Positions 16,495 to 64,000 of a stretch of DNA of 64,000 nt are shown here, one piece after another. This DNA comes from Eutreptiella sp. 'Long Island Sound 2002'. Taxonomy: Eukaryota > Euglenozoa > Euglenophyceae > Eutreptiales > Eutreptiaceae. The translations under genes were made by a program, and so were the position numbers. The notes under the pieces are model-generated. The model saw only the letters and a program-made list of their open reading frames with translations. It was not told the DNA's origin and did not search any database. Positions within the stretch are counted from its first letter, which is position 1; the number at the start of each line of letters is the position of its first letter. The stretch spans positions 30,259,087 through 30,323,086 of the forward strand of contig OZ038392.1 of assembly GCA_964036045.1 (NCBI GenBank). Reading direction: 5' to 3'.

Positions 16495-16508
16495 GGTAGC
16501 AGAGACAG
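16495..16508 (+). promoter_or_regulatory. Primer-binding site, initiator tRNA-Met type
   Basis: GGTAGCAGAGACAG immediately follows the LTR. GGTAGCAGAG is complementary to the CTCTGCTACC end of animal- and protist-type initiator tRNA-Met; the following A departs from the LTR2 version. Confidence 0.75.
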
Positions 16509-16576
16509 TCCCTTGTGACCTTTTGAACAGACCCTGAGAAGAAGTGCAGCACACAAAGCTCAACAACAAGTTCATC

Positions 16577-18783: not shown

Positions 18784-18807
18784 GGGGGCGGCTCCGAAGA
18801 GGAGGAC

Positions 18808-38388: not shown

Positions 38389-39106
38389 TTCGTAATTGAA
38401 AATGAAAAAAATTGAAATCTACCGATGCATGCGGTGTGCCAAATTTGGCGGCACAGACCTGCAAGGCAGACAGGCTGAATGCGTACGGTTTCACACCAGG
38501 CAAACAAGTGAATACTTGCCACTTATCTGCATGCATCGCGAAAGCCTGAAATCAAGTGCATGTCTTTCAAAAGACAAACAACATCGCAATTTTTGAAAAT
38601 GCCCCCCCTGAACAAAAATTCCTCATCCCTCAAATCAGAGGCCACCACCAAGTTCTGATGCAATGTGTGAACTGTGTGGGAGGTTTGCAGTGTCGCACAC
38701 ATTTGAGTCTACAGATCTGGCTTTCAGGCTCGCCACTTGCTCAGTCAGGCAGTTGTCGCACAAGTCTAGCCGGTGACGGTATGCAGACTGCGGCCCTAGC
38801 AGACTGCGAAAGACTGCGCACGAACAGGCGACACGCGTAACTGAAAAAACCACCGCAACTGACAGAAAGGTATGAATTTTATGTTGTTGTTCTAATTACC
38901 GCAAGCGGTTCGAATTTCACCTTCTGGTCACTCTGTCACTTATTATTAATTACTGACAAATGTGTGATTGGCGAGCGTTGCCCTTTACTTCGCTGTTTTG
39001 AATGCGTTTAGCGCTGTGCGCAAATCGACTCCCTCCCCCTCAATTTGAACTCCCTCCAAGTGAATATCCACTCCCTTCTACTCAATTTCTACTCCCTCCA
39101 AGTGAA
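38389..39106. other. Region upstream of the kinase gene
   Basis: It should hold the 5' UTR and promoter of the minus-strand kinase gene. I see no clear TATA box or other motif. GCGGTTCGAATTTC near 38909 resembles a Pol III B box but no tRNA fold surrounds it. Confidence 0.4.
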
Positions 39107-44476: not shown

Positions 44477-45270
44477 AGTAACAAAAAGTGCTTTTCCAAT
44501 GCTTTAGGGTATACGTTAGTTGTATTAGAGGTGCTCTAAGCACTCATGCATTTTTATCTTAGTATTGGCCCAACCAAAATGGGTGATAACACATTTTGAC
44601 CTATGGAACCAAACACTTCATCAGGATGTGGTGTGGACCCCTTTATCCCCAAGCTATAGGCACTAAAACATCTTTTCCTGGGTTGCTGAGGCACTGATAT
44701 ACTGAGGGCAGAGCCTATGAATTTATCTATGTTTTCTCATGAATTCTTAGCTATCCTAGTGGTATGCATCCTAGGGGGCTGGGGCACCTCTTTTTGAGAG
44801 GTCCTGGGTTCAATACCCAGTCAGCCTAGCTAAGTAGGAATATCCCATGTGACATGGCAGTGACCTCAGCGCCACAAGCCATGCCACCTCAGCACCTATG
44901 GGACCCAAAAACAAAGAGTGCACATCTCAAGATGGCACTGTGGATGAGAGTGAGCCCTTGGGGCAGTTTTTCAATCAGTGTTTCTCAATCATGTAAAATA
45001 TTTCATCCTGAGTTGCATTGTATGCTAATTGCTGTGGTCTATTGTTGATAGTTGTCTTTATCTAACTCTTTGTGACTGCAGCCCTTCATGCTTTGATCCT
45101 GTTTATCTTCTACTTGCTTATCTCTGGCTTGGGTTGTCCTGGATTGGTTGTATTTCAACAAATAAAACATTTTCTTCATCAAAAACAAGCAGCAGGAAAC
45201 CCTACACCAGCAGCAAGCAGCAGGAGAGGCACAACAAACACACAGTGTTGAAATCACTATAAAACTTTCT
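44477..45270 (+). repeat. 5' LTR of LTR2 (794 bp)
   Basis: Starts AGTAACAAAAAGTGC and ends ATAAAACTTTCT before the PBS. It shares the AGTAA(G/C)AAAAAGT start with LTR1 although the rest is unrelated. Confidence 0.93.
44747..44833 (+). other. tRNA-like folded segment in the LTR with a B-box-like motif
   Basis: TTAGCTA near 44747 pairs with TAGCTAA near 44827. Inside, GGCTG pairs with CAGCC, ACCTC with GAGGT, and CTGGGTTCAATACCCAG is a perfect T-arm-like hairpin with B-box-like GGTTCAATACC. CTAG(TGGTATGCATC)CTAG resembles a D arm. The spacing is wrong for a true tRNA. The same segment recurs in the 3' LTR near 55310-55396. Confidence 0.4.
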
Positions 45271-45284
45271 GGTAGCAGAGGCAG
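45271..45284 (+). promoter_or_regulatory. Primer-binding site, initiator tRNA-Met
   Basis: GGTAGCAGAGGCAG follows the LTR at once. With the last LTR base it gives TGGTAGCAGAGG, the complement of the CCTCTGCTACCA end of initiator tRNA-Met. Confidence 0.85.
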
Positions 45285-45367
45285 ACTGTCTCTGCGTACC
45301 GGCAGCAACCCCGTGCCGTACATCCAGTTCGCCGAGATCAGTCATATATAAGCAGAAGGGCGAGAAT

Positions 45368-47857
45368 ATGGACACAAGGAAAGAGGACACCGACGTGAGG
45401 ACGGCGCCTGAGGCACCAGCAATGCCAGCACCTGGTGAACCTGGACCTGGACCTAGCGCTGTACCTTCGTTGCCCTTACATGGGCCAGTGGACTTGGCGG
45501 AGGATTCGCTGGAAGGACTTCAGTCGGCCTTTCGGGCCCTCTCAGTCGAGGAGGTGGACAGCAATCCTGTGAAGAGGAAGAGAGAGAGAGAGAAGGATGC
45601 TGGAGAGAGCATAGCAGACGAAGGAGCAGACCAAGGGCACGACCCGACGAATGATCCTACCTTCGAAGGCCCACCAAGCGCTTCTGGCCTCCACGCATGA
45701 CCCTCTCCTACTACCACCACACTCCCAGCTCCAGACCCAGCCGCTACAACATCCACACCCATAACCAACCCGCCTATGGCTGAGGGCACAGGCTTTACTG
45801 GTATGCCTACCTACCCTGCCTATGGTGTGAACCCACCTACCACTGCGTTTCCAGAGGCAACTACTACCAGTGAGCCAGTGGCCTCCAGTTCCGCGCCGCG
45901 ATGGTATGCGGCTGACTACCCTCATCCTCTACCCACTACGGGAGCCTATGTGGATGTTCCTGGGTATGCAACCTTGAGTGGACTGAGGAGAGGACCTGAG
46001 TCATGCGGGAGCAGGAGTAGAGGATCGGGGAGATCCTCCAACAGGTCCCTGACGCGGTCGGAGATCAACGAGGCGCTCCGAGGAGCCACCTCTAAAATTG
46101 TGGTCGATCTCACTCAAGAGATTCGAGAGAAACTGGAGCCCCTGATACCGCCCCAAGCGTCACGTACCACGGTGGGAATGTCACCCCATCGAGTACAGGC
46201 TAACCACCTGGTGGCGGGGTTGACAAACACCCTGGGGAGCCTGAGGAGCCGACCGATGCCGACCCCTGCAGCTATACCGAGAAGCCCTTTCGTGCCGAGG
46301 ACGGCCCAGCCACCCTACAGCCACGTGGGGAATTCTACGAGAGCCGAGCTGGACCGGCTGGGGCTGACTGCCCTGAGGGCAATGGTGGACGTGGAGCCCT
46401 ATGGCTCCAGTGACCTAGGCGGAGACCCCTCTGACGATGAGCCGCCTTCAATGACTTCTGCTTCGCCCTCGGAGGACGACGACCCTGAGGACCCCGAGAA
46501 ACCAAGTGGGAAGAAGAAGAAGAAGAAGAAGAAGACCCGACGCCCTGGAGGACGCAGGTCTCAGGAGGCTAAGGCTATTGCCACCTCCAAGATCGTGGTG
46601 AACCTGCCTGAGTTCACAGGCAAGGATCTCAGCGAGTTCGCTGAGAATTTTGGCCGGTTTCTCCGAGTGACCGGCCAAACCCACGCTAGTGGACGGGTCA
46701 AGTGCGATCTGCTCCTGCAGTGTTGCAAGACCAAGTACCTGGAGAAGCAGGTTAAGCAGATCGTGACTAAGTCCGCCACCTTTGCCGACGTGTTGGTTGC
46801 CTTGGAGAGGCAGTACCCAACCTATGAAACCGACCTCTCCATCAGGGCCGAGATCCAGAACCTACCCATGCTGCCCAACAACCCCAAGCCGGGCAGAGTC
46901 TCTGAGCTGTTGGCTGACCTGGATCACTGGGCTGGACGATTGACGCCCGGTTCCTACAGCAGCGACGACCTGCTTTTCTGGTTGGTGGCTAAGCTCCCTC
47001 GAGAGCTGTGGGACGAGTGCCGTTCAACGGCAGAACGCAAGGCGAGAGCCCTCCACTACGAGGATCTATGTGTACTACTCTTGGAGCTGGCGCTGGAAAA
47101 AGAAAGCGACCAGCACCTGAACAACTACCGTCCTGGAGGTGGAGGCTCCGGAGGTCAAGGCAAAGGGTACCAAGGATCCAGACATGGGCAGGGGACTACC
47201 CCCAAACACGCCCGTATCATGGAAAACGTCAAGGAGCTCTTCTGGTGTGATGCCAGAGACGAGCAGGGTCACCTGCAGCACGCCCCTGACTGCGAGCAGC
47301 GAGACTGCTTCGTAGTTCAGGGGAAGAAGCAGGAGACCAACACCGGCGCCAAGGCGAAGATGCCGGATCACTACAGGTGTACCATCACCTGTGCCTTCTG
47401 TGGGAAGAGGAAGCACTACGAGGATGAGTGCTACCACAAGCAACACCTGTCGGCGAAGCTGAAGGGTGAGGATCCTGGCAAAGGCTCTGGCAAAGGTGGA
47501 GGCAAAGGCAAAGGCAACGACTCCGGCAAGGGCAAGTCGAAAGGACGTGGACAAGGGCAAGACAAGAGTCAAGGTGGACGAGGAGGAGGCGCTAACCGTC
47601 AGCCAGACAAGGACAACAAGAATCCTGACAAGAACGGAGGCAACCCTAACCCTAATCCAGGGGGGAACTCCGAGCCCTCTGGAGGGCAGTCTGGTCCCAC
47701 CACACGCTCGCAGACGCAGGCCCAGCGAGAACAAGGGGCCAAGCGTGAGCATGAAGGTGGTGAGGACGGCAACGCTAAAAAGAGAAGCCGTTTCATGAGG
47801 ATGGCCCGCAAATTGCGGAACAAGGGGTTCGAGGTGGTGGTTCCCGCTGAGTTCTGA
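45368..47857 (+). CDS. Gag of LTR2, with one in-frame TGA near the N terminus
   Basis: An ATG at 45368 opens 110 codons to TGA 45698-45700. The same frame continues with a second ATG at 45776 for 693 codons to TGA 47855-47857. Either the true start is 45776, or the first TGA is a mutation or is read through. Features of the 693-aa part: Pro-rich N terminus, RSRGSGRSSNRSLTRSEI, a KKKKKKK patch near residue 246, a capsid-like region (NLPEFTGKDLSEFAENFGRF onward), zinc knuckle CAFCGKRKHYEDEC (CX2CX4HX4C), and a Gly/Lys-rich RNA-binding tail. It matches the LTR1 Gag in capsid, knuckle and tail. Gag would assemble the particle and bind genomic RNA. Pol follows in the same frame. Confidence 0.9.
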
Positions 47858-47878
47858 CGAGGACGCTCCGGTGGGGAC

Positions 47879-50800
47879 ATGGACCTGGTGTTCTGGGTAC
47901 GTATCCGTCTTGGGGGACGTGAATACCTGGGGGTACTGGACACTGGCGCCACAATATCTATAGTGGCTAAGAAAATTTTACCTTGGGGGATCCTGAAGAA
48001 CACCATGCCTACCGCGGCTATACGTAAGGGGGCTGGCCATGTGGTACACAGCTGTGGGGACTGTGAAGTGGATGTGCCTATGGGCTCACAAACTATAGCC
48101 CATCGTTTCTATGTCATGGACACTGAGGCCTTCGACTTCGTGCTGGGTACTGACTTCTTCGTGCAGCACACCCAGATTCAGTCTCTGACGCTCCAGGCCC
48201 CCTACCTCCTCTACGTGGACCACGGCAAAGGCACAGAGTCCGTGCCATTGGAGCCGTCTGACCACACCTCGAGCTACCTGCGGTTAAAGAAGGAGAACCT
48301 GATGGCAGCCTCAAAAACGGAGGACTATCAACTATTGGGGGAAGTCCTAGACCAAGGTCTGAAGGAGTTGGGTTACTCTAGAGAAGACCTGAGTGTGGAG
48401 TTGTTCGCCAGCGACAAGCAACATGTACTGGACTTTTACTGCAGCAAGGGGAAGAACTGCAGCTACAAATTTTACTGGCCCTCTTTCGGGATGGCCTACG
48501 GGAACCCCAGGTTCAGTGAACTGGGGAAGGTCTTGACCAAGGTGGCCTTGGAACGTTCCCGTATGGTCCTTTGTTCCCCCGATTGGGGAGCCCATGGGGG
48601 CAACGAGTACTGGCGAAACCTCCTGGACAGGCTGACTATCAGCTCTGTCCGGTTACCTGATGAGGCCATCTACGTGCCTCTGGGGCGTAAGACGCCTATT
48701 GGGAGACCCGGATGGGGGAGTATGCTCAGCGTGGTGGATGGAGGTCTTACCTCCATCCCCTGGGAGGACCTGGACTCGACTCTGGTCCAGGCAATACAAC
48801 GAGAAAGCGATGGACTCGCCTTGGGTGACTTGAAGGATCGACTACGACCTCAAGATGCTATTGAGACTATACCCGGGGGAGATGAATACGTCGTGACTAA
48901 CACCAACGCCCCCAACTTTCCCTGCCATGTACCTGTTCCTGATGGAGTCTCTGAGTGTGGACTATCCGAGCTACCTAGCTCAATCCACTCAGGTGACGAA
49001 ACCGAGCATGACGCCTTCTTCGTGCAGACCTGTGTGGAGGAAGTGGAGAACGCCGAGTACGTCGCCCCACTGAAACTCCTACTCTCCATGAGGGTGGAAG
49101 ACCCCGTGGACGAAGAGCTGGACCCCCGATCCAGGCTCAGGGAGTATGTGGACTCCAAGAGGAAGTTGGTGGCGAAAAAGCTATGCTACGCTAAGCCTAC
49201 CCGCAGCTCATGGCCACTGAAGCAAGGACGTATGGGAGATCTATCCCAATTGAAGGAGGACCTCGAACAGAAGATCACCACCTGGCAAAGGGAGGTAGAT
49301 CTTAAGCTCATGAAGAGCGTGTGGGGTGCCCATGTGAGGACCCCAGAGGAGGACGACCTCTCGGAGGAATGTGTATGTGAACCCCCTCGAGCGTGCCTAT
49401 GTTGCCATCGTCCACCGGAGATGGTTGAACGAGACCTACTATATGCCTACCAAGGGTTGAAGGATACTACCAAGGGCGAAGAGTCGGTGGAGGATCACCT
49501 CCCGACGTCTATTACTCAGGGGGCAAGCAACCTACACTCTGACGAGGACATGGAGGACAAGATCAAGCTATTGGACCCGCGGGTACAGACGCTTATAAGG
49601 ACCTATCTGGAGGTGTTCGGGGAACTACCACCCCCAGCCTCATGTGACAAGCTGGTGCAGATGGACCTCAAGCTGAAGCCCGGGTTCGTGGGTCACAAGA
49701 TCCGGAGGAGACCCTATCCAGCTCCTAAAGAGCAGGCAGACGAGATTGAGCGACAGATACAAGAATGTATCGACGCTGGCCTAGTCCTGGAGTACAAGGA
49801 CGGGGACTACCCCCAACACTGCAGCCCCTGTTTCCTGGTGGCTAAACCTGGGTCTACAGCCAAACGGCTGGTGGTGGACTACGGAGAGCTGAATAAGAAA
49901 ACGCTGAACCACTCAGGGTCCATTCCTAACATGGAGTCTACCCTAGAGAAGATAGCCTCCTGTCGCTACAAGACCAAGATGGACAAGAGGAGCGGATTCT
50001 GGCAAGTGGACCTGACGCCCAACGCTCAGGAGCTACTGGCCTTCATCACCCCTCAGGGGAGGGTGTTCAAGTGGAAGGTCATGCCATTTGGCGTGGCCAA
50101 CGCACCCGCTCTATTCCAGGAGCTGATGAACAAGATCTTGTCCATCCTACGAAGGAGACCTAAGGTGCAGGAACTCATATCCCGTGGGGCCCAGATGGAA
50201 GCACACATTGACGATGTATGCCTTGGGACCAATACCCAGGAGGATCACCTAATCCTCTTGGGTGAGTTCTTTGCAGTCTGCCAAGAGAACCACACACGAC
50301 TCAAGCTGGAGAAGTGTGAGTTCATGCAGGAGACCATGCAGTACCTGGGGTTCGATGTTGGCTATGGGTGGTGGACCCCAGCGGCCTCTAAGGCCAAACC
50401 CCTGATGGACGCTAAGGTACGACACGAAGACCCCAAGAAAGGACTTCATGATGTACGCAGTTTCATTGGGGCGTGCAACTTCTATCGCCGCCATATCAAA
50501 AACTTCACCTACACCAGCGCCATTCTGACGGACTTGATCAAGAAGAGTACTACGTGGCGCTGGGGCCCACAAGAGCGACAAGCGTTTGACGAGCTCAAGG
50601 ACAAGGTGGCCAACGCTAAGTGCCTGGGCGTGCCTAGGGCACAAGGGGAGATTATCCTGGTGACTGACGCCAGCAATGTGGGCGGTGGTGGAACGTTGTT
50701 CCAATGGCAAGCACTAGAGAAGGAGGAGTTCGACTCGGCCATTTCCCAATGGGGGACGGAAGGTCTCAACCGAGACGGGACTCTTAAGCACAGCTACCCT

Positions 50801-52780
50801 GACGACAAGTGGGTCCTAGTACCTCTGGGCCACTGGAACTGGAAATGGAACCAGGCCAGGGGGAACTACTCCACCTATGAGCAGGAATTGCTCGCGGGTA
50901 TGCTAGTGCTATCCTCACAATCACGACTGTTGGGGAGTAACCCTGTGGTCTGGCTGTGCGACCAAGAGCCGGTTCGCACTTTCCAGAAGGGCCCCCCACC
51001 TGAGAAGGCCAAGCTACGGCGCTGGTGGACCTACCTCAGTCAACTACGGCTGACGGTACACCATATCCAGGGGGTGAAGAACGAGTGTGCAGACTACATC
51101 AGCCGCAACAACTTCGACGCCCTGATTGGTGCCCGGTCTGAAGCGCTAGCTAAGGAGGCGTTCAGTCGTATGGACGTCCACTTGGACCTCAGCATGACTA
51201 TGATACGCCCCCTGGATGGACTCCAACAATCGGAGTACCTGAAGGAGTTTGGGGATATCTACAAGCGCCTGGAGAAACGCCTTGAACCCCTCCTGGTCAA
51301 CCAAGATCAGTGGAAGAGGGACAAGAGCTACCTCTGGCACGAGGACCGCATCGTGGTGCCCAGTGACAGAGTCCCAGCGCTGCTGAAGTGGACCCATGAG
51401 TCCAGCGGTCATGTGGGTGCTGACCGTACCCTGAGGTTATTCAAGCAGTGGTTCCACACTACGTGGACTGACGACCAACTGCGAAAAACCCTCCTGCCTA
51501 TCGTGGACAAGTGCCCGTGCAGGTCCTGCAAACCAGGGGATATTAGGGACAGGGGTCTCTACTCGACCCTGCCCATCCCTCACTGTGCTAACAGTGTTCT
51601 ATACGTGGACTACACGGAGATGCCGGAGTTCGGGGGCTATGACTTCGCCCTCGTGGTAACCTGTGGGTTGACCAGGTTTACCAGGGTGTTCCCATGTACC
51701 AAGCACATTACCGGAGAGGAGACTATCAAGATACTCCTGGAGGAGTGGTTTTGTGTCTATGGGGCGCCTAAGGAGATCAACTCCGATGAGGACGTACGAG
51801 TACGCTCAGATACCGGCTGGTACAAGAGGGTCCTGAGATCCCTCAATGTCCAGGTGTCTACGGGGATCCCCTACTCTCACACGAGCAACCCCCTATGTGA
51901 GCGACAGATTCGTGTCCTCAAGGAGAATGTCAGGATATGGTGCAAAACTGAACGCACCAGAGACTGGGTGAGACTACTCCCCGTCATATCCTTGATGATG
52001 AACTCCCAGGAGAGTTCAGCTACTGGCTACTCGCCCCATGAGCTATTCCTAGGGCGCCCGGCGTGGTTCCTACATGCCCCCTATCCAGAGGACACCCATT
52101 CTTCAGTGGGTGGATGGGTCCAAGAACAACAAGCAAAGGTGGACAAGGCCAAGGCTATGCTCCAGAGAGTGAGGGAGCGCCAGTGGAACAAGAAGAACAA
52201 GCACCGAGTACCGGCCACCTACCAAGAGGGGGACTGGGTGCTGGTGCACCACAGTCGGCTACCCGCCTGGCCACGCTCTACCAGCGATGACCCTTACTTC
52301 GGGCCCTACAAGATTCTATCTGTGGATGGACACCGTATCACCGTGCGGTGTTCTCCCCGTCTAGGGGGGACCCTGGTGTGCGCTGCTCAACATCTTAAGC
52401 GCTACTATGATCCCGAAGACCTCTGTGGGGAAGAGTGGGAGCTGAACGACGAGGAGATCGCTGCCCTAGACCTACAAGGGGCTGCCAGCCCTATGGAAGT
52501 TGAAGGGGAACTCCCCGACATGAACGCCGAGGAGATGGCTAAGGAGGGCTTCTACCTGGTGAAGTCTGTCCTACGCCACCGCTATCGCCAGGGTTGGCGC
52601 TTCCTTACCCTCTGGGAAGGGTTTGGAGTCGAAGAGGCCACCTGGGAGCCTTTCTCTGCGTTTGTACTACCTGAGGGACACCTAAACTCAGTTCTGGTTG
52701 ACTACTTGTCCCAGAACAACCTTGGGGAGTTGCTGAGGCTCGCTGAGACGCTTGCCTCCAAGACTAAAGCTACCGACTGA
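47879..52780 (+). CDS. Pol polyprotein of LTR2 (PR-DIRS-like-RT-RH-IN-chromodomain), 1633 aa
   Basis: Fully open from ATG 47879 to TGA. Approximate residues: protease LDTGATISIV 20-30; DIRS-like segment with VELFASDKQH...YCS and YGNPRFSELGKVLTK 170-240; RT 575-790, with RRPYPAP, FKWKVMPFGVANAPALFQEL and HIDD (about 776) where most RTs have (Y/F)xDD; RNase H TDAS 927, E in YSTYEQELLAG, D in WLCDQEPV; integrase HHCC zinc finger (HESSGH...CPCRSC); DDE core D in LYVDY, D in SDEDVRV, E in CERQ; GPY/F near 1470 (DPYFGPYKI); chromodomain 1555-1615 (EEATWEPFSAF). It would copy the RNA to cDNA and integrate it; the chromodomain probably guides insertion to marked chromatin. It begins 21 nt after the gag stop in the same frame. 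Confidence 0.95.
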   Translation: MDLVFWVRIRLGGREYLGVLDTGATISIVAKKILPWGILKNTMPTAAIRKGAGHVVHSCGDCEVDVPMGSQTIAHRFYVMDTEAFDFVLGTDFFVQHTQIQSLTLQAPYLLYVDHGKGTESVPLEPSDHTSSYLRLKKENLMAASKTEDYQLLGEVLDQGLKELGYSREDLSVELFASDKQHVLDFYCSKGKNCSYKFYWPSFGMAYGNPRFSELGKVLTKVALERSRMVLCSPDWGAHGGNEYWRNLLDRLTISSVRLPDEAIYVPLGRKTPIGRPGWGSMLSVVDGGLTSIPWEDLDSTLVQAIQRESDGLALGDLKDRLRPQDAIETIPGGDEYVVTNTNAPNFPCHVPVPDGVSECGLSELPSSIHSGDETEHDAFFVQTCVEEVENAEYVAPLKLLLSMRVEDPVDEELDPRSRLREYVDSKRKLVAKKLCYAKPTRSSWPLKQGRMGDLSQLKEDLEQKITTWQREVDLKLMKSVWGAHVRTPEEDDLSEECVCEPPRACLCCHRPPEMVERDLLYAYQGLKDTTKGEESVEDHLPTSITQGASNLHSDEDMEDKIKLLDPRVQTLIRTYLEVFGELPPPASCDKLVQMDLKLKPGFVGHKIRRRPYPAPKEQADEIERQIQECIDAGLVLEYKDGDYPQHCSPCFLVAKPGSTAKRLVVDYGELNKKTLNHSGSIPNMESTLEKIASCRYKTKMDKRSGFWQVDLTPNAQELLAFITPQGRVFKWKVMPFGVANAPALFQELMNKILSILRRRPKVQELISRGAQMEAHIDDVCLGTNTQEDHLILLGEFFAVCQENHTRLKLEKCEFMQETMQYLGFDVGYGWWTPAASKAKPLMDAKVRHEDPKKGLHDVRSFIGACNFYRRHIKNFTYTSAILTDLIKKSTTWRWGPQERQAFDELKDKVANAKCLGVPRAQGEIILVTDASNVGGGGTLFQWQALEKEEFDSAISQWGTEGLNRDGTLKHSYPDDKWVLVPLGHWNWKWNQARGNYSTYEQELLAGMLVLSSQSRLLGSNPVVWLCDQEPVRTFQKGPPPEKAKLRRWWTYLSQLRLTVHHIQGVKNECADYISRNNFDALIGARSEALAKEAFSRMDVHLDLSMTMIRPLDGLQQSEYLKEFGDIYKRLEKRLEPLLVNQDQWKRDKSYLWHEDRIVVPSDRVPALLKWTHESSGHVGADRTLRLFKQWFHTTWTDDQLRKTLLPIVDKCPCRSCKPGDIRDRGLYSTLPIPHCANSVLYVDYTEMPEFGGYDFALVVTCGLTRFTRVFPCTKHITGEETIKILLEEWFCVYGAPKEINSDEDVRVRSDTGWYKRVLRSLNVQVSTGIPYSHTSNPLCERQIRVLKENVRIWCKTERTRDWVRLLPVISLMMNSQESSATGYSPHELFLGRPAWFLHAPYPEDTHSSVGGWVQEQQAKVDKAKAMLQRVRERQWNKKNKHRVPATYQEGDWVLVHHSRLPAWPRSTSDDPYFGPYKILSVDGHRITVRCSPRLGGTLVCAAQHLKRYYDPEDLCGEEWELNDEEIAALDLQGAASPMEVEGELPDMNAEEMAKEGFYLVKSVLRHRYRQGWRFLTLWEGFGVEEATWEPFSAFVLPEGHLNSVLVDYLSQNNLGELLRLAETLASKTKATD

Positions 52781-55039
52781 ACCTTACCCTTACCTGCCTA
52801 AGCGTATGTGTGAGTGTGCTATTCCTAAGGTCCTGAGAGCAAGCCGCAGAAGTGGTGTCCTAATTATACCCAAGTCTGCTCGCTTGCTAAACCCGGAGGG
52901 TTGTCTTTTTGATGCCACGGGGTACGCCCCGGGTCTCCCCTCCCCTAAGCGCCCAATTTCTGTGATGGCGCAAAACCTTGGGGGAATACCCAGCGTACTA
53001 ATCCAGGTATTCTTTTCCCTACCTATCTGTCTACTACAGGGAGGGGTGGCCAAAAGCTATGAAGGCATGAAAACGCCTATTTGCTAAGCGGCCAAAACGC
53101 TGACCTAACCACTGCCACAGCCCACCAACCCTGCTAACATTGCAGGAAACAGGTGGGACTGTGACACACGCACTACAGGTCCTACACACCCTGCAGTGGC
53201 ACCATCCTGGTGGGCGAGCACTGCTGCAATTGGCTCAAGCCCCCACACAGGACTACCACTCCTACACGCACGCTCTACTGGGTGGTGTTGAAGATGATGT
53301 CAGGAGCCCTAGCGGCTCACCTGTGAGAATACAAGGAAAAACAGCGCTACTAAGCAGCTGTGGCCTCACAGGGGACGCCACAACGCGTTTCCCCTGCAAG
53401 GGCTTGGAGTGAAGGACGCACAGGTGGCGTGCACAGCGCAGATGTCATTGAGGTCGGACTCCCTTCTCTGCCACAGGCAGAGGCGGAGTTGCTTGTGTGT
53501 GATCTGCGCCTCGTTTTAGCTGAGGCTTTAAAAAACGCTACAGCTGCTGCACCAATCACCCTACCTGCCCACCTGGAGAACAGAGGCCAATGAAGGAGAG
53601 TTTCTGGCGGAGGAACCAAGCCATGCTCCACGTATTATACGCTTCTTAGCATGACCTATAATACGCTGTCCAGAAAAACTCCTGCCAAGCAAGCAAGCTT
53701 AGAGACTCCTCAGGTTCTCTTAAAGAGCGTACCAAGGAGCCTCAGGTATCCTAAACAAGGTTTACCGTGTGCACTCCGCGTGGCCTACCCTTTAATGCGT
53801 ATGTGCATGCACGAGTATGCAACGGGTTCTTCTTAATCTTTCAGGGGACCATCAAATCTTTCCTAATCTCGACCAATCACAAACCTCAGTGAACCAACTC
53901 TACCAGGGGGTGGCCCCTCCTGGGCTACCTACCTTACTCACCGCTGGAGAACGTGAACAGGTGAGGAGCGAAGTAAAAACGATGCTATGCACTTGTGTGT
54001 ATGTCTAATCACCCTGATCTTACCTCTAATCATCTGCAATCTTACTAATCTATCCCTCTATCGTGTTCTATCGTGCAACCAGGCTTGAAGACGACGACAC
54101 AAGGCGAGCACTGTGCGTCATGCAAGCATAACGAGCACACCTGCAGTTTATACCTGATTCAGTGAAGTCATATTCTTATTTTTCGAATTCTTGAATTTCT
54201 GATTGATTCTGTCAGTGTGGGTGGAATCTTTAATTATGTCTATTTATGTGTGTCTCGTCTTTTTCTTGTTTACGTGAGACATACGTTTATAATTTGTTTA
54301 TTTCTGTATTTTCCGGCGCTTCGCTAGGAGCCGCTCCTGCGCGCCGCCTTTTTCTGCGTAAGAATTTCTTGATTTAAAAATTCAAGAGATGACTATAAAT
54401 TTTATAAAAATGTGCATCCGATGCACAATTGGATTCTGTTCAGGTGTGTGGCTTCAGAAAAATTCCAGGCCGTCATTTGACGGATTTAGGTGTTGTCGCT
54501 TCGCGTTTGCGAGGATTCGTCCCTCATCCTCTCATTCCTCTGTTGTACAGACCTCCTCGCAAAGCCTCGTTGAGTAGGCCGCTGTTCGGGCCAAAAAGCA
54601 GCCACAGGAGACTGAACCAGAATCAAGACCCCTCCAAGGGGCAATTCTAATTAAATCAGCGCACCCTCGCCCCAGTACCAGGACAGGTGTCTTCAATAGG
54701 TTCAATGAGACTTGGGTCGAGCGTCCTATGTGAGTCTGGCGTTGGGTTGTGTTATGCTGCAGCTTGGAGGGAGGGATGCACATGCATATTGTCTTGGCAT
54801 GCCCTTTTCTAACCCCACCAAGCCACAGGAACCCCGGCAGCGCCAAGAGCGCTGAGTTTTCTGTTGGAAATTGTCATCAACAATGCAGCAAGAGTCGCTG
54901 GCCATGGTAAAGCGCTCTTTTCCAGTGTAAGGGAAGCTATAGGTATTTTTAAGTAGGTGTGGAAACCAAGGAAAGGCCAAGAAAAAAATCCCTTTTTCCT
55001 GAAAATGCGACAGTGGTGGCCAGCACAGCACAAGGGGGG
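52781..55039 (+). other. Conserved 3' non-coding region of LTR2 with polypurine tract
   Basis: It holds the same ordered blocks as LTR1 23587-26297 up to about 53960. After that the two differ. CAAGGGGGG at 55031-55039 abuts the LTR and is the likely polypurine tract for plus-strand priming. No long ORF. Confidence 0.75.
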
Positions 55040-55833
55040 AGTAAGAAAAAGTGCTTTTCCAATGCTTTAGGGTATACTTTAGTTGTATTAGAGGTGCTCT
55101 AAGCACTCATGCATTTTTATCTTAGTATTGGCCCAACCAAAATGGGTGATAACACATTTTGACCTATGGAACCAAACACTTCATCAGGATGTGGTGTGGA
55201 CCCCTTTATCCCCAAGCTATAGGCACTAAAACATCTTTTCCTGGGTTGCTGAGGCACTGATATACTGAGGGCAGAGCCTATGAATTTATCTATGTTTTCT
55301 CATGAATTCTTAGCTATCCTAGTGGTATGCATCCTAGGGGGCTGGGGCACCTCTTTTTGAGAGGTCCTGGGTTCAATACCCAGTCAGCCTAGCTAAGTAG
55401 GAATATCCCATGTGACATGGCAGTGACCTCAGCGCCACAAGCCATGCCACCTCAGCACCTATGGGACCCAAAAACAAAGAGTGCACATCTCAAGATGGCA
55501 CTGTGGATGAGAGTGAGCCCTTGGGGCAGTTTTTCAATCAGTTTTTCTCAATCATGTAAAATATTTCATCCTGAGTTGCATTGTATGCTAATTGCTGTGG
55601 TCTATTGTTGATAGTTGTCTTTATCTAACTCTTTGTGACTGCAGCCCTTCATGCTTTGATCCTGTTTATCTTCTACTTGCTTATCTCTGGCTTGGGTTGT
55701 CCTGGATTGGTTGTATTTCAACAAATAAAACATTTTCTTCATCAAAAACAAGCAGCAGGAAACCCTACACCAGCAGCAAGCAGCAGGAGAGGCACAACAA
55801 ACACACAGTGTTGAAATCACTATAAAACGTTCT
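55040..55833 (+). repeat. 3' LTR of LTR2 (794 bp)
   Basis: Differs from the 5' copy at about four positions by eye (for example AGTAAG against AGTAAC, AAAACG against AAAACT). It includes the second tRNA-like segment and ends at GTTCT before GGTGA. Confidence 0.93.
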
Positions 55834-58165
55834 GGTGACATGCCCAGATTTGGCTGGAATGGCCATGGGCTGGGCTGGCCAGAACTGATTTTGCTCAGGC
55901 GCGCGCGCGGCGCGGCGCGCAAAACAATTTTCCATTGTGACCGGGAATCGATTTGGGTGGAATCGGCATGCTGAAAAATGTAGGAAGAGATGGGTTTCAA
56001 ATTCTGGGTCAAACTGGGGTATCCCCGGAATGGCCCTGGGCTGGGCTAGCCAGAACTGATTTTGCCCAGGCGCGCGTGCGGCGCGGCGCGCAAAAAGGTT
56101 TCCGTTTTGACCGGGAATCGATTTGGGAGGAATCGGCATGCTGAAAAATGTAGGAAAAGATGGGTTTCGAATTCTGGGTCAAACTGGGGTACCCCCGGTG
56201 ACAGACCTAGATTTGGCTGGAATCGCCCTGGGCTGGGCTGGCCTGAACTGAATTTGCCCAGGCGCACGCGCGGCGTGGCGCGCAAAAAAGTTTCCGTTTT
56301 GACTGGGAATGGATTTAGGTGGAATCGGCATGCTAAAAAATGTAGGAAAAGATGGGTTTCAAATTATGGGTCAAACTGGGGTACCCCCGGTGACATACCC
56401 AGATTTGGCTGGAATGGCCCTGGGCTGGGCTAGCCAGAACTGCGTTTGCCCAGGGGCGCGCGCGGCGCGGCGCGCAAAAAGGTTTCCGTTTTGACCGGGA
56501 ATAGATTTGGGTGGAATCGGCATGCTGAAAAATGTAGGAAAAGATGGGTTTGAAATTCTGGGTCAAACTGGGGTACCCACGGTGACATACCCAGATTTGG
56601 CTGGAATGGCCCTGGGCTGGGCTGGCCAGAACTGATTTTGCCCTGGCGCGCGCGCGGCGCGGCACGCAAAAAAGTTTCCGTTTTGACCCGGAATTTTTTT
56701 GGGTGGAATCGGCATGCTGAAAAATGTAGGAAAAGATGGCTTTGAAATTCTGGGTCAAACTGGGGTACCCCCGGTGACATACCCAGATTTGGCTGGAATG
56801 GCCCTGGGCTGGCTGGTCAGAACTGATTTTGCTCAGGCGCGCGCGCGGCGCGGCGCGCAAAACAGTTTCCATTGTGGCCGGGAATCGATTTGGGTGGAAT
56901 CGGCATGCTGAAAAATGTAGGAAAAGATGGGTTTGAAATTCTGGGTCAAACTGGGGTACCCCCGGTGACATACCTAGATTTCGCTGGAATGGCCTTGGGC
57001 TGGGCTGGCCAGAACTGATTTTGCTCAGGCGCGCGCACGGCGCGGCGCGCAAAAAAGTTTCTGTTGTGACCGGGAATCGATTTGGGTGGAATCGGCATGC
57101 TGAAAAATGTAAGAAAAGATGGGTTTCAAATTCTGGGTCAAACTGGGGTACCCCCGGTGACATCCCCAGATTTGGCTGGAATGGCCCTGGGCTGGGCTAG
57201 CCAGAACTGATTTTGCCCAGGCGCGCGCGCGGCGCGGCGCGCAAAAAGGTTTCCGTTTTGACCAGGAATCGATTAAGGAGGAATCGGCATGCTGAAAAAT
57301 GTAGGAAAAGATGGGTTTCAAATTCACGGTCAAACTGGGGTACCCCCGGTGACATACCTAGATTTGGCTGGAATGGCCATGGGCTGGGCTGTCCTGAAAT
57401 GATTTTGCCCAGGCGCGGGCGCGGCGCGGCGCGCAAAAAAACTTCCATTTTGACCGAGAATCGATTTGGGTGGAATCGGCATGCTGAAAAATGTAAGAAA
57501 AGATGGGTTTCAAATTCTGGGTCAAACTGGGGTACCCCCGGTGACATCCCCAGATTTGGCTGGAATGGCCCTGGGCTGGGCTGGCCTGAACTGATTTTGC
57601 CCAGGCGCGCGCGCGGCGCGGCGCGCAAAAAAGTTTCCGTTTTGACCGGGAATCGATTTAGGTGGAATCGGCATGCTAAAAAATGTAGGAAAAGATAGGT
57701 TTCAAATTCTGGGTCAAACTGGGGTACCCCCGGTGACATACCCTGATTTGGCTGGAATGGCCCTGGGCTGGGCTAGCCAGAACTCATTTTGCCCAGGCGC
57801 GCGCGCGGCGCGGCGCGCAAAAAGGTTTCCGTTTTGACCAGGAATCGATTAAGGAGGAATCGGCATGCTGAAAAATGTAGGAAAAGATGGGTTTCAAATT
57901 CAGGGTCAAACTGGGGTACCCCCGGTGACATACCTAGATTTGGCTGGAATGGCCATGGGCTGGGCTGTCCTGAAATGATTTTGCCCAGGCGCGGGCGCGG
58001 CACGGCGCGCAAAAAGGTTTCCGTTTTGACCGGGAATCGATTTGGGTGGAATTGTCATGCTGAAAAATGTAGGAAAAGATGGGTTTGAAATTCTGGGTCA
58101 AACTGGGGTGGCCCCGGTGACATCCCCAGATTTGGCTGGAATGGCCCTGGGCTGGGCTGGCCAGA
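55834..58165 (+). repeat. Satellite S2, second block (about 12 units)
   Basis: It resumes directly after the LTR2 target duplication. One unit near 56030 has an internal deletion (CCCCGG joined to AATGGCCC). It breaks off inside a unit at GGCCAGA, where TAGG repeats begin. Confidence 0.96.
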
Positions 58166-58184
58166 GGTAGGTAGGTAGGTAGGT
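58166..58184 (+). repeat. (TAGG)n short tandem repeat at the S2 break
   Basis: About four and a half GTAG units mark the junction between S2 and the GC-rich block. Confidence 0.9.
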
Positions 58185-58709
58185 GCACTCGGTCGTGGAG
58201 AGGCGCCCTATGGTTCCCGCTGGCGTTGCCGCTGTGACGAACAGGAAGAGGCTCCGCGCTTGAAGAGGGGAGGCGACTTACATCCCGCTAGACCTGACTG
58301 GTGGCCCCCAACAAAGCGGCCCCGGGCAACACCGGGAGGGCTGATCGCCGCCAGCGTGACTGCTTGTCATGCCGGGAGGGTGGGCCCCCGTGCTTGCGCA
58401 CGTCCCCTCCTTTGGGCGGAACCCTAGGGGTTCACCGGACTTCCTGGTGTATCCCGTTCGCAAGGCATGCATGCATGTTCTTGGTACCGGGGTTCCGAGG
58501 TGCTTGGGTGTCGCACGCTCCGCCTCGAGTCCCAAAGCAGCGCTGGCCTTAGGATGCAGCCTTACCCCCGGGCTCCGGATCTCGTTTGGCCGGGTCACCT
58601 GCATGGCACGGGCTGCCTCAGTGCCCGGGCTATGGACACTGGGTCTCCTACTGTTGCGTGGCGCTTGTGTTTGGGTCTGGGTTGTGGTTGGATTCGGGTT
58701 TCGGTTGCG
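58185..58709. other. GC-rich single-copy segment before S3
   Basis: No gene recognised. The composition (GC-rich, A-poor) resembles rDNA spacers, but I see no rRNA sequence. Confidence 0.4.
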
Positions 58710-60812
58710 CCCCGCCACTCCTGGCTGGGGCGTTGGGGTGTGTGTGTTTGTGTGCGTGCTCCGCTCGTACCCCGCCACTCCTGGCTGGGGTGTGCGGTGT
58801 GGGTGTGTGTGCTTGGGTTCGGGTTTCGGCTGCGCCCCGCCACTCCTGGCTGGGTTGTCGGGGTTGGTCTCTGCTTGTGTGCGCGCTCCGCTTGCACCCC
58901 GCCACTCCTGGCTGGGGTGTGCGGTGTGGGTGTGTGCGCTTCGGCTCGGGTTTCGGCTGCGCCCCGCCACTCCTGGCTGGGGTGTTGGGGTGTGTGTGTG
59001 TTTGTGGGCGCGCTCCGCTTGTACCCCGCCACTCCTGGCTGGGGTGTGCGGTGTGGGTGTGTGTGCCTGGTCTCTGGTTGCGGCCGCGCCCCGCCACTCC
59101 TGGCTGGGGTGTTGGGGTGTGTGTGTGTTTGTGGGCGCGCCCCGCTTGTACCCCGCCACTCCTGGCTGGGGTGTGCGGCTCGGGTGTGTGTGCCTGGGCT
59201 CGGGTTTAGGCTGCGCCCCGCCACTCCTGGCTGGGGTGTTGGGGTGTCTGTGTGTTTGTGGGCGCGCCCCGCTTTTACCTCGCCACTCCTGGCTGGGGTC
59301 TGCGGTGTGGGTGTGTGTGCCTGGGCTCGCTTTTCGGCTGCGCCCCGCCACTCCTGGCTGGGGTGTTGGGGTGTGTGTGTGTTTGTGGGCGCGCTCCGCT
59401 TGTACCCCGCCACTCCTGGCTGGGGTGTGCGGTGTGGGTGTGTGTGCCTGGGCTCGGGTTGCGGCCGCGCCCCGCCACTCCTGGCTGGGGTGTTGGGGTG
59501 TGTGTGTGTTTGTGGGCGCGCCCCGCTTGTACCCCGCCACTCCTGGCTGCGGTGTGCGGCTCGGGTGTGTGTGCCTGGGCTCGGGTTTCGGCTGCGCCCC
59601 GCCACTCCTGGCTGGGGTGTTGGGGTGTCTGTGTGTTTGTGGGCGCGCCCCGCTTGTACCCCGCCACTCCTGGCTGGGGTCTGCGGTGTGGGTGTGTGTG
59701 CCTGGGCTCGGGTTTCGGCTGCGCCCCGCCACTCCTGGCTGGGGTGTTGGGGTGTGTGTGTGTTTGTGGGCGCGCTCCGCTTGTACCCCGCCACTCCTGG
59801 CTGGGGTGTGCGGTGTGGGTGTGTGTGCTTGGGTTCGGGTTTCGGCTGCGCCCCGCCACTCCTGGCTGGGGTGTCGGGGTTTGTCTCTGCTTGTGTGCGC
59901 GCTCCGCTTGCACCCCGCCACTCCTGGCTGGGGTGTGCGGTGTGGGTGTGTGTGCTTCGGCTCGGGTTTCGGCTGCGCCCCGCCACTCCTGGCTGGGGTG
60001 TTGGGGTGTGTGTGTGTTTGTGGGCGCGCTCCGCTTGTACCCCGCCACTCCTGGCTGGGGTGTGCGGTGTGGGTGTGTGTGCCTGGGCTCGGGTTGCGGC
60101 CGCGCCCCGCCACTCCTGGCTGGGGTGTTGGGGTGTGTGTGTGTTTGTGGGCGCGCCCCGCTTGTACCCCGCCACTCCTGGCTGGGGTGTGCGGCTCGGG
60201 TGTGTGTGCCTGGGCTCGGGTTTCGGCTGCGCCCCGCTACTCCTGGCTGGGGTGTTGGGGTGTCTGTGTGTTTGTGGGCGCGCCCCGCTTGTACCCCGCC
60301 ACTCCTGGCTAGGGTCTGCGGTGTGGGTGTGTGTGCCTGGGCTCGGGTTTCGGCTGCGCCCCGCCACTCCTGGCTGGGGTGTTGGGGTGTGTGTGTGTTT
60401 GTGGGCGCGCTCCGCTTGTACCCCGCCACTCCTGGCTGGGGTGTGCTGTGTGGGTGTGTGTGCTTGGGCTCGGGTTTCGGCTGCGCCCCGCCACTCCTGG
60501 CTGGGGTGTGCGGCGTGGGTGTGTGTGCTTGGGCTCGGGTTCCGGCTGCGCCCCGCCACTCCTGGCTGGGGTGTTGGGGTGTGCGTGCTCCCCTTGTACC
60601 CCGCCACTCCTGGCTGGGGTGTGCGGTGTGGGTGTGTGTGTTTGGGTTCGGGTTTCGGCTGCGCCCCGCCACTCCTGGCTGGGGTGTTGGGGTGTGTGTG
60701 TGCTGGTGTACGTGCTCCGCTTGTACCCCGCCACTCCTGGCTGGGGTGTGCGGTGTGGGCGTGTGTGCTCGGGCTCGGGTTTTGGCTGCGCCCCGCCACT
60801 CCTGGCTGGGGT
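58710..60812 (+). repeat. Satellite S3: dimeric 127-bp repeat (62 + 65 bp), about 16 dimers
   Basis: Every monomer starts CCCCGCCACTCCTGGCTGGG. One type continues with TGTTGGGGTGTGTGTG and ends CTCCGCTTGTA; the other continues with TGTGCGGTGTGGGTG and ends TTTCGGCTGCG. Starts at 58710, 58770, 58835, 58897, 58962, 59024 and 59089 alternate near 62 and 65 bp. CCCC-GCCA...TGGC-GGGG in each monomer can form a hairpin. Confidence 0.95.
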
Positions 60813-61497
60813 TTGTGGTGCGTGGGTTGGCTGTTGCCTGGCACCTGTTCCTGTGCCGTGGTTCGTTGCGTGTTGTGCGCGCTGCCCGGGTTTACGGCAC
60901 CCGGTGGCCGTTGTTGCTTGGCACCTGTCCGTGTGCCTTGGTTCTGGCCGGCGGCGTGCCTCTCTGGCGTGCCTCGTGGCCCCGCGTTGGTGCGCCGCGC
61001 CTCGTCCGGTCCGGTTGCTCTCGGTGCTCCGGTCGGCTTTCCCGACGCCGTGGTGCCTTTCCCACCCCGGGGGCTTGCGCCCCCGGCTTTACTGTGTGGC
61101 TGCGCGGGGCACGCGGAGGCCGGCCGAGAACCGGGCTCATTGTGCCTGCCGCTGGCCCCTGCCGAGGCGGGGGCGCTGGGCTCGCTCCGCGTCGTACCCG
61201 TTCGGGGCCCCGCGATGGGGTTGTCCCTGGCGGGTCCCTCCGGCGTCGGTCTTGGGCTGCGTGCGCTGCGGTGTTTTGTGTGTGTGGACCCGGTCACTGA
61301 CGCGTCCGGTTTCCCGTACCGTCCGTCTTTCGACGGGGGACTCGGCCGGTGCACCGGGGCTGTTTCGTGTGGACGCCGACACCGCCCCTTTCGGGTCGGA
61401 GGACGCCACGCCCGGGTCCCGTGCGTGTGTGCGTGTGCGTGCTTTCTTGGCCGGGTTGGGCGGGCCGGCCTCCCGGGCGCGTTTTTGGTGCGCCTCA
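60813..61497 (+). other. GC-rich, A-poor transition segment
   Basis: Single-copy, with few adenines. It looks like a transcribed spacer in composition (for example TTTCGACGGGGGACTCGG near 61327) but carries no identifiable RNA or protein gene. Confidence 0.45.
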
Positions 61498-62899
61498 CCT
61501 TTTCCTGTGGCCGTTGTTGTTGCTCTCTTTGTCTGCTCGGCCTCCGCCGGGCTGGGGTTGCCCTGCTTGTGTTGTTTGTGGGTTTTTGTTTTTTTTTTTC
61601 CTTCTCTCTTGTGCGCCCCCTTTGTCTCTGGCGTTTTGTGTTTTCCGGCCCCGGGTGCCTTGGGCCTTGGCGTCTTGTGGTCCTTCCCCCCCCCCTCTTT
61701 GGTTTGTTTTTTTTTTTTTTTTCCTCCCCCCTGCCCCCCTTTTTTTTTTTTTGCCCTTTGTCTTCGTGTTCGTGTTCGTGGGTTTTCCCTGCTCTTTTTT
61801 CGTGCTGTGCTGGCTGTGCGGTGCCGTGCTGTTGTGTCGTGGGCTGTGGGGCGTGTTGGTGTGTGTTGTTGTGGGCCTTGTGCTGCGGCGGGGGCCGGTG
61901 TGCTTTTGCGCTCCCTTGTTCGGTTCCCCCTTTTGTGTTGTTCCTTGTTTTGTTGCGTGTGCCCGGTGGCACCGCGCTGGCGGCGTTGCTCTTCCGCTTG
62001 CTGCCTCTGGTGGCTGCCGTGTGGCTTGGTGTTGGGCTTGGTTTTTTTTTTTTGCGTCGGGTTTCTGCTGCTCATGCCCCCCCCCCCCCCTGTGTGCTGT
62101 CCCGTGTTGTGGGTTGTCGTGCGTCGTGTGGTGTGGTGCTGCGGTCTGTGGTGTGTTCTGTGTTGTGTCCGTTGTTGTGTGGCGTGCTTGTGTTCTTGCG
62201 CCGTGTTGTGCTGGGTCGCGTTGCTCTGTTGTTGTTGTGCCCTGCTTTCGTGCGCTGCTGCGTTCTCGTTCTCTGCTGGTTTCTTTTTTGCTTTTTTTCG
62301 TTGTTCCCTGCCTTTCCGTGGTGCTGTTTCTGTTTCTGTGCTCTGCTTGTGCGGTGCTGTGCTGGTGTGCCTGTGTCGCTGCCCTCTGTGCGCTGCTCTC
62401 GTGCCCCTGTGGCGCTGGCTGGTGTTTTGTGTTGTTGTCTGTTGTGTTTGCGTGTTTGCTGTTGGGCCTGGCTGTCCTCTGTTGCCTCCTGGTGGGTCCT
62501 GGTGTCGTGTGTTGGTGGTGTGCTGTGGTGTGTCCCTGGGTGCCGTGCTGCGCTGTGTTGCTGCGCGTTGTGCCGCCCGGCGTTGTGTGGTTTCGTTTTG
62601 CCCTGTTTGGTGCTGTCGTGTGGTGTGTCGTGTCCTGGGGCGCTGTCCGTCGTCCTGGGGTCCTGTGCCTTCCGGCGCTGTGTTTTGTCGTGTCTCGCCG
62701 CGCTGTGTGTGTTTTGCTGTGGTGTGTTGCTGCGTGGTGTTGCTCGCCGCTGTGTGTCGTGCTGTGCGGTCCCTGTCCTCTCCTCCCTGTGCGGTGCTGC
62801 TGTGGGGCCCTGCTCTCCCTTGGTGCCCTGCTCCCCTGTGCTGTGCCCCGTGGTGCTGTGCTGCCGTGTGGTGCTGTGGTGTCCCGTCCTGCTGCTTTG
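61498..62899 (+). other. Adenine-free block: 1,402 bp with only two A residues
   Basis: Reading base by base, the only adenines are at 61971 and 62074. 61498-61970 (473 bp) and 62075-62899 (825 bp) have none. The sequence is otherwise varied G/T/C DNA with T runs (61706-61722, 61740-61752, 62042-62053) and C runs, and is not a simple repeat. All stop codons on either strand need an A on the plus strand, so all six frames are open and the long ORFs here mean nothing. Confidence 0.97.
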
Positions 62900-63033
62900 A
62901 TTGGTTTGTTTCCTGCCGTTGTTTGGTTTCTCCTACTTGAAAAACCGCTGCAAAATTTGTTTAAAATTAAAATTTTTTTGAAAATAAAATAAAATTATAC
63001 ACTACCCAACGCACGCACACTCGCACACTTGCA
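62900..63033. other. AT-rich junction between the A-free block and S2
   Basis: Composition flips within about 40 bp: 62936-62998 is A/T-rich (GTTTAAAATTAAAATTTTTT). ACGCACGCACACTCGCACAC then leads into S2. Confidence 0.9.
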
Positions 63034-64000
63034 GGTACCCCCGGTGACATACCCAGATTTGGCTGGAATGGCCCTGGGTGGGGCTGGCCAGAACTGATTT
63101 TGCCCTGGCTCGCGCGCGGCGCGGCGCGCAAAAAAGTTTCCGTTTTGACCGGGAATCGTTTTGGGTGGAATCGGCATGCTGAAAAATGTAGGAAAACATG
63201 GGTTTGAAATTGTGGGTCAAACTGGGGTACCCCCGGTGACATACCCAGATTTGGCTGGAATGGCCCTGGGCTGGGCTGGCCAGAACTGATTTTGCCCAGG
63301 CGCGCGCGCGGCGCGGCGCGCAAAACAGTTTCCGTTGTGACCGGGAATCGATTCGGGTGGAATCGGCATGCTGAAAAATGTAGGAAAAGATGGCTTTCAA
63401 ATTCTGGGTCAAACTGGGGTACCCCCGGTGACATCCCCAGATTTGGCTGGAATGCCCCTGGGCTGGGCTGGCCAGAACTGATTTTGCCCAGGCGCGCGCG
63501 CGCGGCGCGGCGCGCAAAAAGCTTTCCGTTTTGACCGGGAATCGATTTAGGTGGAATCGGCATGCTAAAAAATGTAGCCAGAACTGATTTTGCCCAGGCG
63601 CGCGCGCGGCGCGGCGCGCAAAAAGGTTTCCGTTTTGACCCGGAATCGATTTGCGAGGAATCGGCATGCTGAAAAATGTAGGAAAAGATGGGTTTCAAAT
63701 TCAGGGTCAAACTGGGGTACCCCCGGTGACATACCTAGATTTGGCTGGAATGGCCCTGGGCTGGGCTGGCCAGGAACGATTTTGCCCAGGCGCGCGCGCG
63801 GCGCGGCGCGTAAAAAAGTTTCCCTTTTGACGGGGAATTGATTTGGGTGGAATCGGCATGCTGAAAAATGTAGGGAAAGATGGGTTTGAAATTCTGGGTC
63901 AAACTGGGGTACCCCCGGTGACATCCCCACGTTTGGCTGGAATGGCCCTGGGCTGGGCTGGCCAGAAATGATTTTGCCCTGGCGCGCGCGCGGCGCGGCG
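63034..64000 (+). repeat. Satellite S2, third block (about 5 units, runs off the window)
   Basis: Same 192-bp unit and orientation as the other blocks. Near 63577 two partial units are fused (AAAAATGTAG joined to CCAGAACTG), an internal deletion. Confidence 0.96.

Follow-up and report, generated by a model that had tools for sequence, protein, structure and literature searches.

The 1402 nucleotides between positions 61498 and 62899 of the window (the whole stretch of 64,000 nucleotides that was analysed) contain only two A on the + strand, at positions 61971 and 62074, and they are, on balance, probably the base-excluding domain of a non-autonomous retroposon-like element in a euglenid genome, the propagating lineages of which are selected against U. 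Copies of the element appear to be born with almost no A over about 1.4 kb of one strand and to regain A on decay. Judged from its sequence, the element is large and apparently non-coding, and it forms a dispersed family.

Structure and genomic setting of the element

The domain is part of an insert in a 192-bp satellite, with the following features:

58166..63035, - strand (inferred sense): element copy, an insert of 4.87 kb within the 192-bp satellite, right-truncated at 63033-63035 (inferred 5' side of the RNA)
58166..58184, - strand: (GGTA)n end, which is the (TACC)n 3' tail on the inferred sense strand; fixed left end in 13/20 loci
58185..58690, - strand: unique 3'-side part, its first ~235 bp 91.9-98.7% identical to relatives
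58694..60824, - strand: 127-bp tandem array of alternating ~62- and ~65-bp units, with 34 hairpin-core copies
60825..61497, - strand: GC-rich unique segment, A-poor (4.5%) by base composition
61498..62899, - strand: domain nearly free of A on + and of T on -, by base count and an alignment of 16 copies
62900..63035, - strand: AT-rich segment and sharp stop of the A exclusion, by composition and comparison of loci; the window copy terminates here against the satellite
56027..58165, no strand: 192-bp satellite, left target flank, by tandem-repeat scan
63034..64000, no strand: 192-bp satellite, right target flank, starting at an earlier phase than where the left flank stops (~61 bp overlap, read by eye)

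The ~61 bp overlap in satellite phase at the two ends of the insert could reflect a target duplication, though in a tandem array such an overlap has no unique reading.

The satellite is GC-rich, occupies 43311-44476, 55834-58165 and 63034-64000, and is interrupted by an LTR element as well as by the A-poor element. This LTR element (44477-55836, with 797-bp LTRs that are 99.5% identical) is one of two of Ty3 type, the other being at 15785-27554; both have reverse transcriptase, RNase H and integrase, and the matches to integrase and, in one element, to a chromodomain (a weak match) fall slightly short of the Pfam thresholds. A second satellite with a 230-bp unit, ~21-bp subrepeats and ~25 copies lies at 4596-10930, and a DYRK-like protein kinase with a probable intron extends across two frames at 35909-38418 on the minus strand. 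By the predicted products of the two Ty3-type elements and of the DYRK-like gene, the window is eukaryotic DNA. The 2.28-Gb genome has 3690 exact copies (1785 + 1905) of a 20-base pattern which we take to be the Euglena spliced leader, and none of the reversed control; at the three loci inspected, the copies stand in a repeated, gene-like context.

Composition of the domain

Base counts confirmed the two A in 1402 bp and the stretch of 825 nucleotides without A (62075-62899) that the original prediction had reported; a further A-free run of 473 bp extends from 61498 to 61970. In the rest of the window, with the insert excluded, the longest A-free run is a GT microsatellite of 90 bp. The statement that random DNA cannot yield such a block withstood simulation with first- and third-order Markov models, even though these were trained on the already A-poor flank (58694-61497): among 1000 simulated sequences of 1402 bp for each order, none had an A-free run of 825 bp (the longest were 377 and 411 bp for the first and third order, respectively) and none had two A or fewer (the fewest were 21 and 23). 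The edge towards the AT-rich segment is as sharp as predicted, with 32.1% A from 62900 to 63033. Upstream, the DNA is indeed A-poor, but the proposed gradient from 58690 is mostly a series of steps from module to module: the A content is 13.7% in 58166-58690, 2.5% in 58694-60824, 4.5% in 60825-61497 and 0.1% in 61498-62899.

The block had also been described as not being a short repeat. This is correct in that no tandem repeat spans it and the tandem-repeat scan finds just two short arrays within it, but the block is cryptically simple: 3-4-mers cluster 1.87 times as strongly as after base shuffling (z 11.4 relative to dinucleotide-shuffled sequence), self-matches are in excess at lags 5, 10, 13 and 30 within 62100-62899, and long T and C runs are present. 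Folding energies along the block are mostly shuffle-like (z -2.1 to 2.8 on the + strand), and a structured RNA in the block was rejected on these values. A parent sequence within the window, from which the block could have arisen by conversion of A to G, T or C, was sought and rejected, as nothing scored clearly above controls (best 41.9 versus 41.0 bits, and a tie at 45.5 bits). The block has no coding signature: the lengths of 99 indel events are 1, 2 and 0 modulo 3 in 53, 20 and 26 cases, respectively, substitutions are spread over the three phases as 397/410/420, and a Pfam search with six open frames of the window copy returned no match. In the ~500 bp to the right of the domain, the longest stop-free frames of 11 copies have 81-167 codons, with strand and frame differing between copies; short frames may be present in the end parts of the element.

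Relatives of the element are dispersed in the genome

The original prediction had suggested a search of the assembly for other A-free blocks, and this search found dispersed relatives at many loci: with the block as query, the 2.28-Gb genome gave 41 matches, including the block itself and one piece of 146 bp, with 40 of 2715 candidates scored; the remaining scored relatives have 81-89% identity. Twenty loci of 10 kb were fetched for comparison (labelled L0xx), all of which match the insert in whole or in part. The (GGTA)n left end is found in 13 of these loci, with flanks that differ except in near-duplicate pairs, and left-truncated fragments are common. In 17 of the 20 loci the element continues beyond 63035, by ~510 bp in the fuller copies, so the window copy is right-truncated; the fuller copies are ~5.65 kb long (L011). 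The locus pairs L011/L012, L010/L015 and L016/L017 are alike in flanks and element and probably represent segmental duplications or the two alleles of one locus, assembled separately.

The A content of the region matching 61498-62899 could be determined for 18 of the 20 loci (L013 and L020 have no clean domain and were omitted), and all 18 are A-poor, with 0.28-2.08% A and a longest A-free run of 195-748 bp. The mean identity of a copy to the other copies is 0.89-0.92. An alignment of 16 copies has 1455 columns, and its majority sequence contains a single A (L012, which duplicates L011, was excluded from this alignment, and the near-duplicates L015 and L016 from the substitution counts below).

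Copies gain A with age

The number of A per kb of domain rises with the divergence between the two arms of the target duplication (slope 130, intercept 1.87+-2.29, n=9, p 0.03; two of the points are from a second family, described below, and L024, the oldest copy, has fewer A than the line predicts). Without near-duplicates, the slope is 116 and the intercept 2.19+-2.59 (n=7, p 0.07). A slope of 100-150 is expected if 20-30% of new substitutions yield A, and both intercepts are compatible with zero A in newborn copies. The A count did not correlate significantly with the mean identity to other copies (Spearman -0.37, p 0.13). An artefact of assembly or base-calling, which had been named as the finding that would overturn the original prediction, is exceedingly unlikely: similar domains are found at many separate loci and their A content depends on age.

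Substitutions to A make up 125 of 627 singletons in the domain and 18 of 131 changes common to two copies, mostly in inconsistent pairs, but none of 56 changes present in three or more copies (singletons versus three or more copies: Fisher p=1.4e-5). The contrast is kept on leaving out any one copy (p 1.7e-4 or lower) and is also seen with transitions only: G>A and C>T number 64 and 97 in singletons, and 0 and 22 at three or more copies (p 5.6e-5). The set of widely shared changes is small, 47 of the 56 being C/T with transversions scarce too, and some singleton transversions may be alignment errors. In a control region of 490 bp at the right end of the same element (10 copies), changes to A account for 41 of 181 singletons, 7 of 39 changes in pairs and 3 of 5 changes at three or more copies.

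The window copy has the lowest fraction of private changes to A among the 16 copies tested (1/32, p 0.005), followed by L018 (3/36, p 0.04), as if its private changes had mostly arisen while its lineage was still propagating. Within a single array, the substitution spectrum is mixed. Counting was done on 31/33 units (62 and 65 bp) of the 127-bp array, with 14 copies of the 192-bp satellite, recognised by an anchor pattern, as control: 3 of 38 variants of the array are to A, versus 22 of 72 in the 192-bp satellite (p 0.008), but this is not clearly below the 230-bp satellite (3/11, p 0.12), and singleton variants do not differ (3/22 versus 10/46, p 0.52).

Target duplications and the strand of the RNA

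Long direct repeats flank seven independent insertions (L010, L011, L016, L022, L024, L038 and L039, 0.33-1.14 kb). Six of them are 334-1057 bp long, and their left arm adjoins the (GGTA)n end; the seventh, at L038, has at least 931 bp, as its left arm would reach ~1137 bp and its right arm is seen for 931 bp, to the end of the locus. Cross-comparison of the seven revealed no similarity between insertions, and the repeats are therefore target duplications, not LTRs. Four more insertions have short duplications of 8-17 bp; two of these are exact and those of L021 and L025 are inexact. With near-duplicates dropped, a duplication of at least 14 bp is present in 10 of 12 left-intact copies and in none of 6 left-truncated ones (Fisher 0.0015, on a hand-entered table; L013 and L028 were outside this test). 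The right-truncated copies L016/L017 and L026 still carry target duplications, the right arm of L026 being 488 bp beyond the last aligned base of the element; for the left-intact L027, no target duplication was detected. The duplications are unusually long and variable, and so wide a nick spacing is puzzling: 0.3-1.1 kb is much longer than the usual duplications of LINEs and SINEs.

In target-primed copying, the constant end of an element corresponds to the 3' end of the RNA and the truncated end to its 5' end. Here the left end is constant and the right end truncated, which suggests that the RNA of the element corresponds to the minus strand, so that it would carry a (UACC)n tail and a domain free of uracil. 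Elements that are copied in trans usually have their 3' ends in common. A part of ~475 bp that is 92% identical between the two families lies at the inferred 5' side, and this fits the minus-strand reading less well.

A second family with a different array

This second family was found with the right end of the element as query (40 scored of 2561 candidates): 11 of the 40 scored matches begin only at query position 75-78. Of three loci fetched, L037 has only the right ~535 bp, while L038 and L039 have the part shared with the first family, followed by a 65-bp repeat array, an A-poor segment and a near A-free domain with 4 A in 1667 bp and 6 A in 1684 bp, respectively. The array of L038 consists of 67 copies of the 65-bp repeat, the unit of which matches the unit of the first family over 11 bp at best. 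Between the domains of the two families, patches match at 71-82%; overall aligned identity is 0.72, compared with 0.70-0.74 for shuffled sequences, with a score of 221 versus 108-127. In a search with the block of the second family, all 40 scored matches including itself were at least 95% identical (3129 candidates). The second family has thus diverged strongly and still excludes A, indicating that composition and architecture persist longer than the sequence itself.

In both families, the repeat unit of the array folds as a hairpin (for the two dimers, z is -1.26 and -3.23). On the sense strand, 51 of 53 U of the window array are predicted to be paired; this is 96% and 85% of U for the two families, compared with 47-60% and 57-66% when U are moved at random (8 trials each). 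Since array copies are not independent, these figures are support for a placement of U in stems, not proof. The 34 hairpin cores have a spacing of 48-65 bp that leaves no room for a unit without the kept base, although the search pattern itself requires that base.

Possible reasons for the absence of A

The original prediction had proposed a strand-specific removal of A, or selection for an A-free transcript. A strand-specific exclusion does exist, but the window locus is not where it acts, given that older copies are richer in A and that A is missing only from changes that have spread to three or more copies; and the transcript is more likely to be the other strand and thus free of U. The gain of A with age together with the absence of A from widely shared changes favours either selection or a purge tied to the propagation cycle. 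Tentatively, and with a little less than even confidence, we suggest a class of mobile RNA that is selected to exclude one base, with no U over 1.4-1.7 kb and nearly no exposed U over ~4 kb or more, as the cell or the copying complex recognises U; the conserved trait would be composition, with the tandem repeats being replaced between families. The RNA of the element would correspond to the minus strand and have (UACC)n at its end, with a U-free stretch of 1.4-1.7 kb beside a hairpin array of ~2-4 kb that keeps nearly all its U in stems, and an enzyme from another element would copy it where the target is nicked. Propagation would be poor for RNAs that have U in the domain, so that source lineages would remain free of U and inserted copies would regain it by drift. 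The least certain step is that the RNA must present no accessible U. The agent could be, for example, a need to lack GU donor sites and polypyrimidine tracts in a host that performs both cis- and trans-splicing; alternatively, single-stranded linkers of A, C and G between GC hairpins could be needed for binding by the copying machinery.

The main rival to selection is a base change during the RNA or cDNA phase of the cycle (U to C, or else A to G on the opposite strand) that erases the base in each round, with selection unneeded. It likewise predicts A-free newborns, gain of A with age and no A in widely shared changes, but we regard it as unlikely: the 490-bp control of the same element has ordinary A and transmits changes to A, each unit of the array retains one base, T>G and C>G are not enriched in widely shared changes (4/56 and 0/56), and a sharp limit of the domain would be demanded. 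That the domain is instead a frozen product of slippage, grown in one ancestor from seeds that lack A (runs of T, C, TG and TGC) with nothing maintaining the absence of A, would agree with the cryptic simplicity, the lag-5 periodicity and the long T and C runs; we consider this quite improbable, as the source lineages have diverged without gaining A (see the widely shared changes and the private changes of the window copy) and two strongly diverged families are both nearly A-free.

More improbable still is a plus-strand reading, in which the domain is a giant intron or acceptor region that excludes A and AG as far as a 3' splice site, TTGCAG (63032-63033). Just six AG start between 58621 and 63032, the AT tail of the window copy has 0 AG for 42 A (0-2 AG in 15 copies), the left end looks like repeats of AG|GTAGGT, and the window copy stops at that very CAG, which may be coincidence. 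Its ends are thus donor- and acceptor-like, but the acceptor is absent from the second family (the CAG is missing at L037-L039), the only match to a spliced-leader junction at 63033 has three mismatches, which is the limit, with none convincing, avoidance of AG alone leaves the missing AC, AT and AA unexplained, and the truncation pattern favours the minus strand. A very small chance is left for transcription-coupled mutation asymmetry or R-loop damage, as at highly transcribed loci. For mammalian introns, the reported direction of asymmetry gives a G+T-rich strand, at least in the accessible part of that study (PMC2927911), and the strand here is G+T-rich too; the array also has more G runs on the + than on the - strand (107 versus 40) and 12 versus 0 G4 motifs. 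This bias is confined to the array, with no + strand excess in the A-free block itself (20 versus 28 G runs), and a reading by R-loops or G4 was rejected for this reason; moreover, A accumulates in inserted copies at a roughly normal rate, the domain has an abrupt limit within the element and a bias of this type hardly seems able to lower a base to 0.1%.

It is difficult to show that selection acts on base composition by itself, and dated insertions separate the limits on propagating lineages from later decay. If selection against U is confirmed, it would point to a U-sensing step in a euglenid, in splicing, RNA decay, RNA modification or the reverse-transcription complex. The target duplications of 0.3-1.1 kb are unusual in themselves and bear on the integration of the element. 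The accessible text of the Euglena gracilis genome paper describes an assembly of 2.37 Gb in 46 chromosomes, with 32.7% annotated as unclassified repeats (PMC11252322), on which the element would then give a handle; very abundant high-copy repeats are likewise reported in what is accessible of an earlier Euglena genome paper (PMC6366073).

Comparison with known elements

Target duplications are present, in 10 of the 12 left-intact copies with at least 14 bp, as is typical of retroposons, but their length of 8 to ~1137 bp is atypical. The (GGTA)n end, seen at 13 of the 20 loci, and the duplications at right-truncated copies (L016/L017 and L026) would correspond to a constant 3' tail with 5' truncation, but left-truncated fragments are common. 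Several other classes were rejected. A SINE derived from a tRNA or small RNA is not supported, as there is no tRNA in the window or five loci (ARAGORN, with the bacterial code) and no Rfam match in the window or three loci; an rDNA spacer was dismissed because no Rfam family reached the gathering score in the window, L011, L023 and L039 (with E<=5 there were just two matches, both below it). An LTR retrotransposon would not have flanking direct repeats that differ at each of seven insertions, and target duplications are contrary to expectation for a Helitron-like element, although inspection by eye showed a short palindrome close to the right end. Scans of IMG/VR with the array core and the Ty3 protein of the window, and of GTDB with the Ty3 protein, gave no match in collections from which records of this or near genomes may be absent.

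Non-autonomous non-LTR retroposons, be they long and SINE-like or LINE-derived, are dispersed, make target duplications, are truncated at one end and have a short tandem tail, and the element is like them in the first two, probably also in the other two, and in being apparently non-coding. It differs in its length of ~5.65 kb, the hairpin arrays, the base-excluding domain, duplications of up to ~1.1 kb and the absence of a tRNA-derived or Rfam-listed RNA part. In mouse L1, the monomers of the 5' UTR form tandem arrays that, as here, are part of a retroelement and are replaced from family to family, but the array of this element is on the inferred 3' half, and we know of no base exclusion in the mouse arrays.

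The spacers of human rDNA are low in A, but A is not absent. They are described as GC-rich, strand-asymmetric and transcribed in the accessible part of the source (PMC12869075) and share the first two properties with the element, which has no rRNA family at the Rfam cut-off. Intron 21 of PKD1 contains a kilobase-long polypyrimidine tract (2.5 kb according to a 1996 title cited in PMC11696556, itself accessible in part) that is, like the domain, kilobase-long, strand-asymmetric and rich in repeats; however, that tract is poor in purines and belongs to an intron of one gene, whereas the domain is made of three bases, occurs in a dispersed family and has an exclusion tied to propagation. A literature search for A-free or asymmetric DNA, mostly in records short of the full text, retrieved no element or domain that excludes one base; the nearest strand-asymmetric sequences were PKD1 intron 21 (PMC11696556) and the rDNA spacers (PMC12869075), with no propagation-linked exclusion in the accessible parts of these papers. 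Non-autonomous retroposons are a known kind of element, and what appears to be new here, judged from the records searched, is the exclusion of one base over 1.4 kb in propagating lineages.
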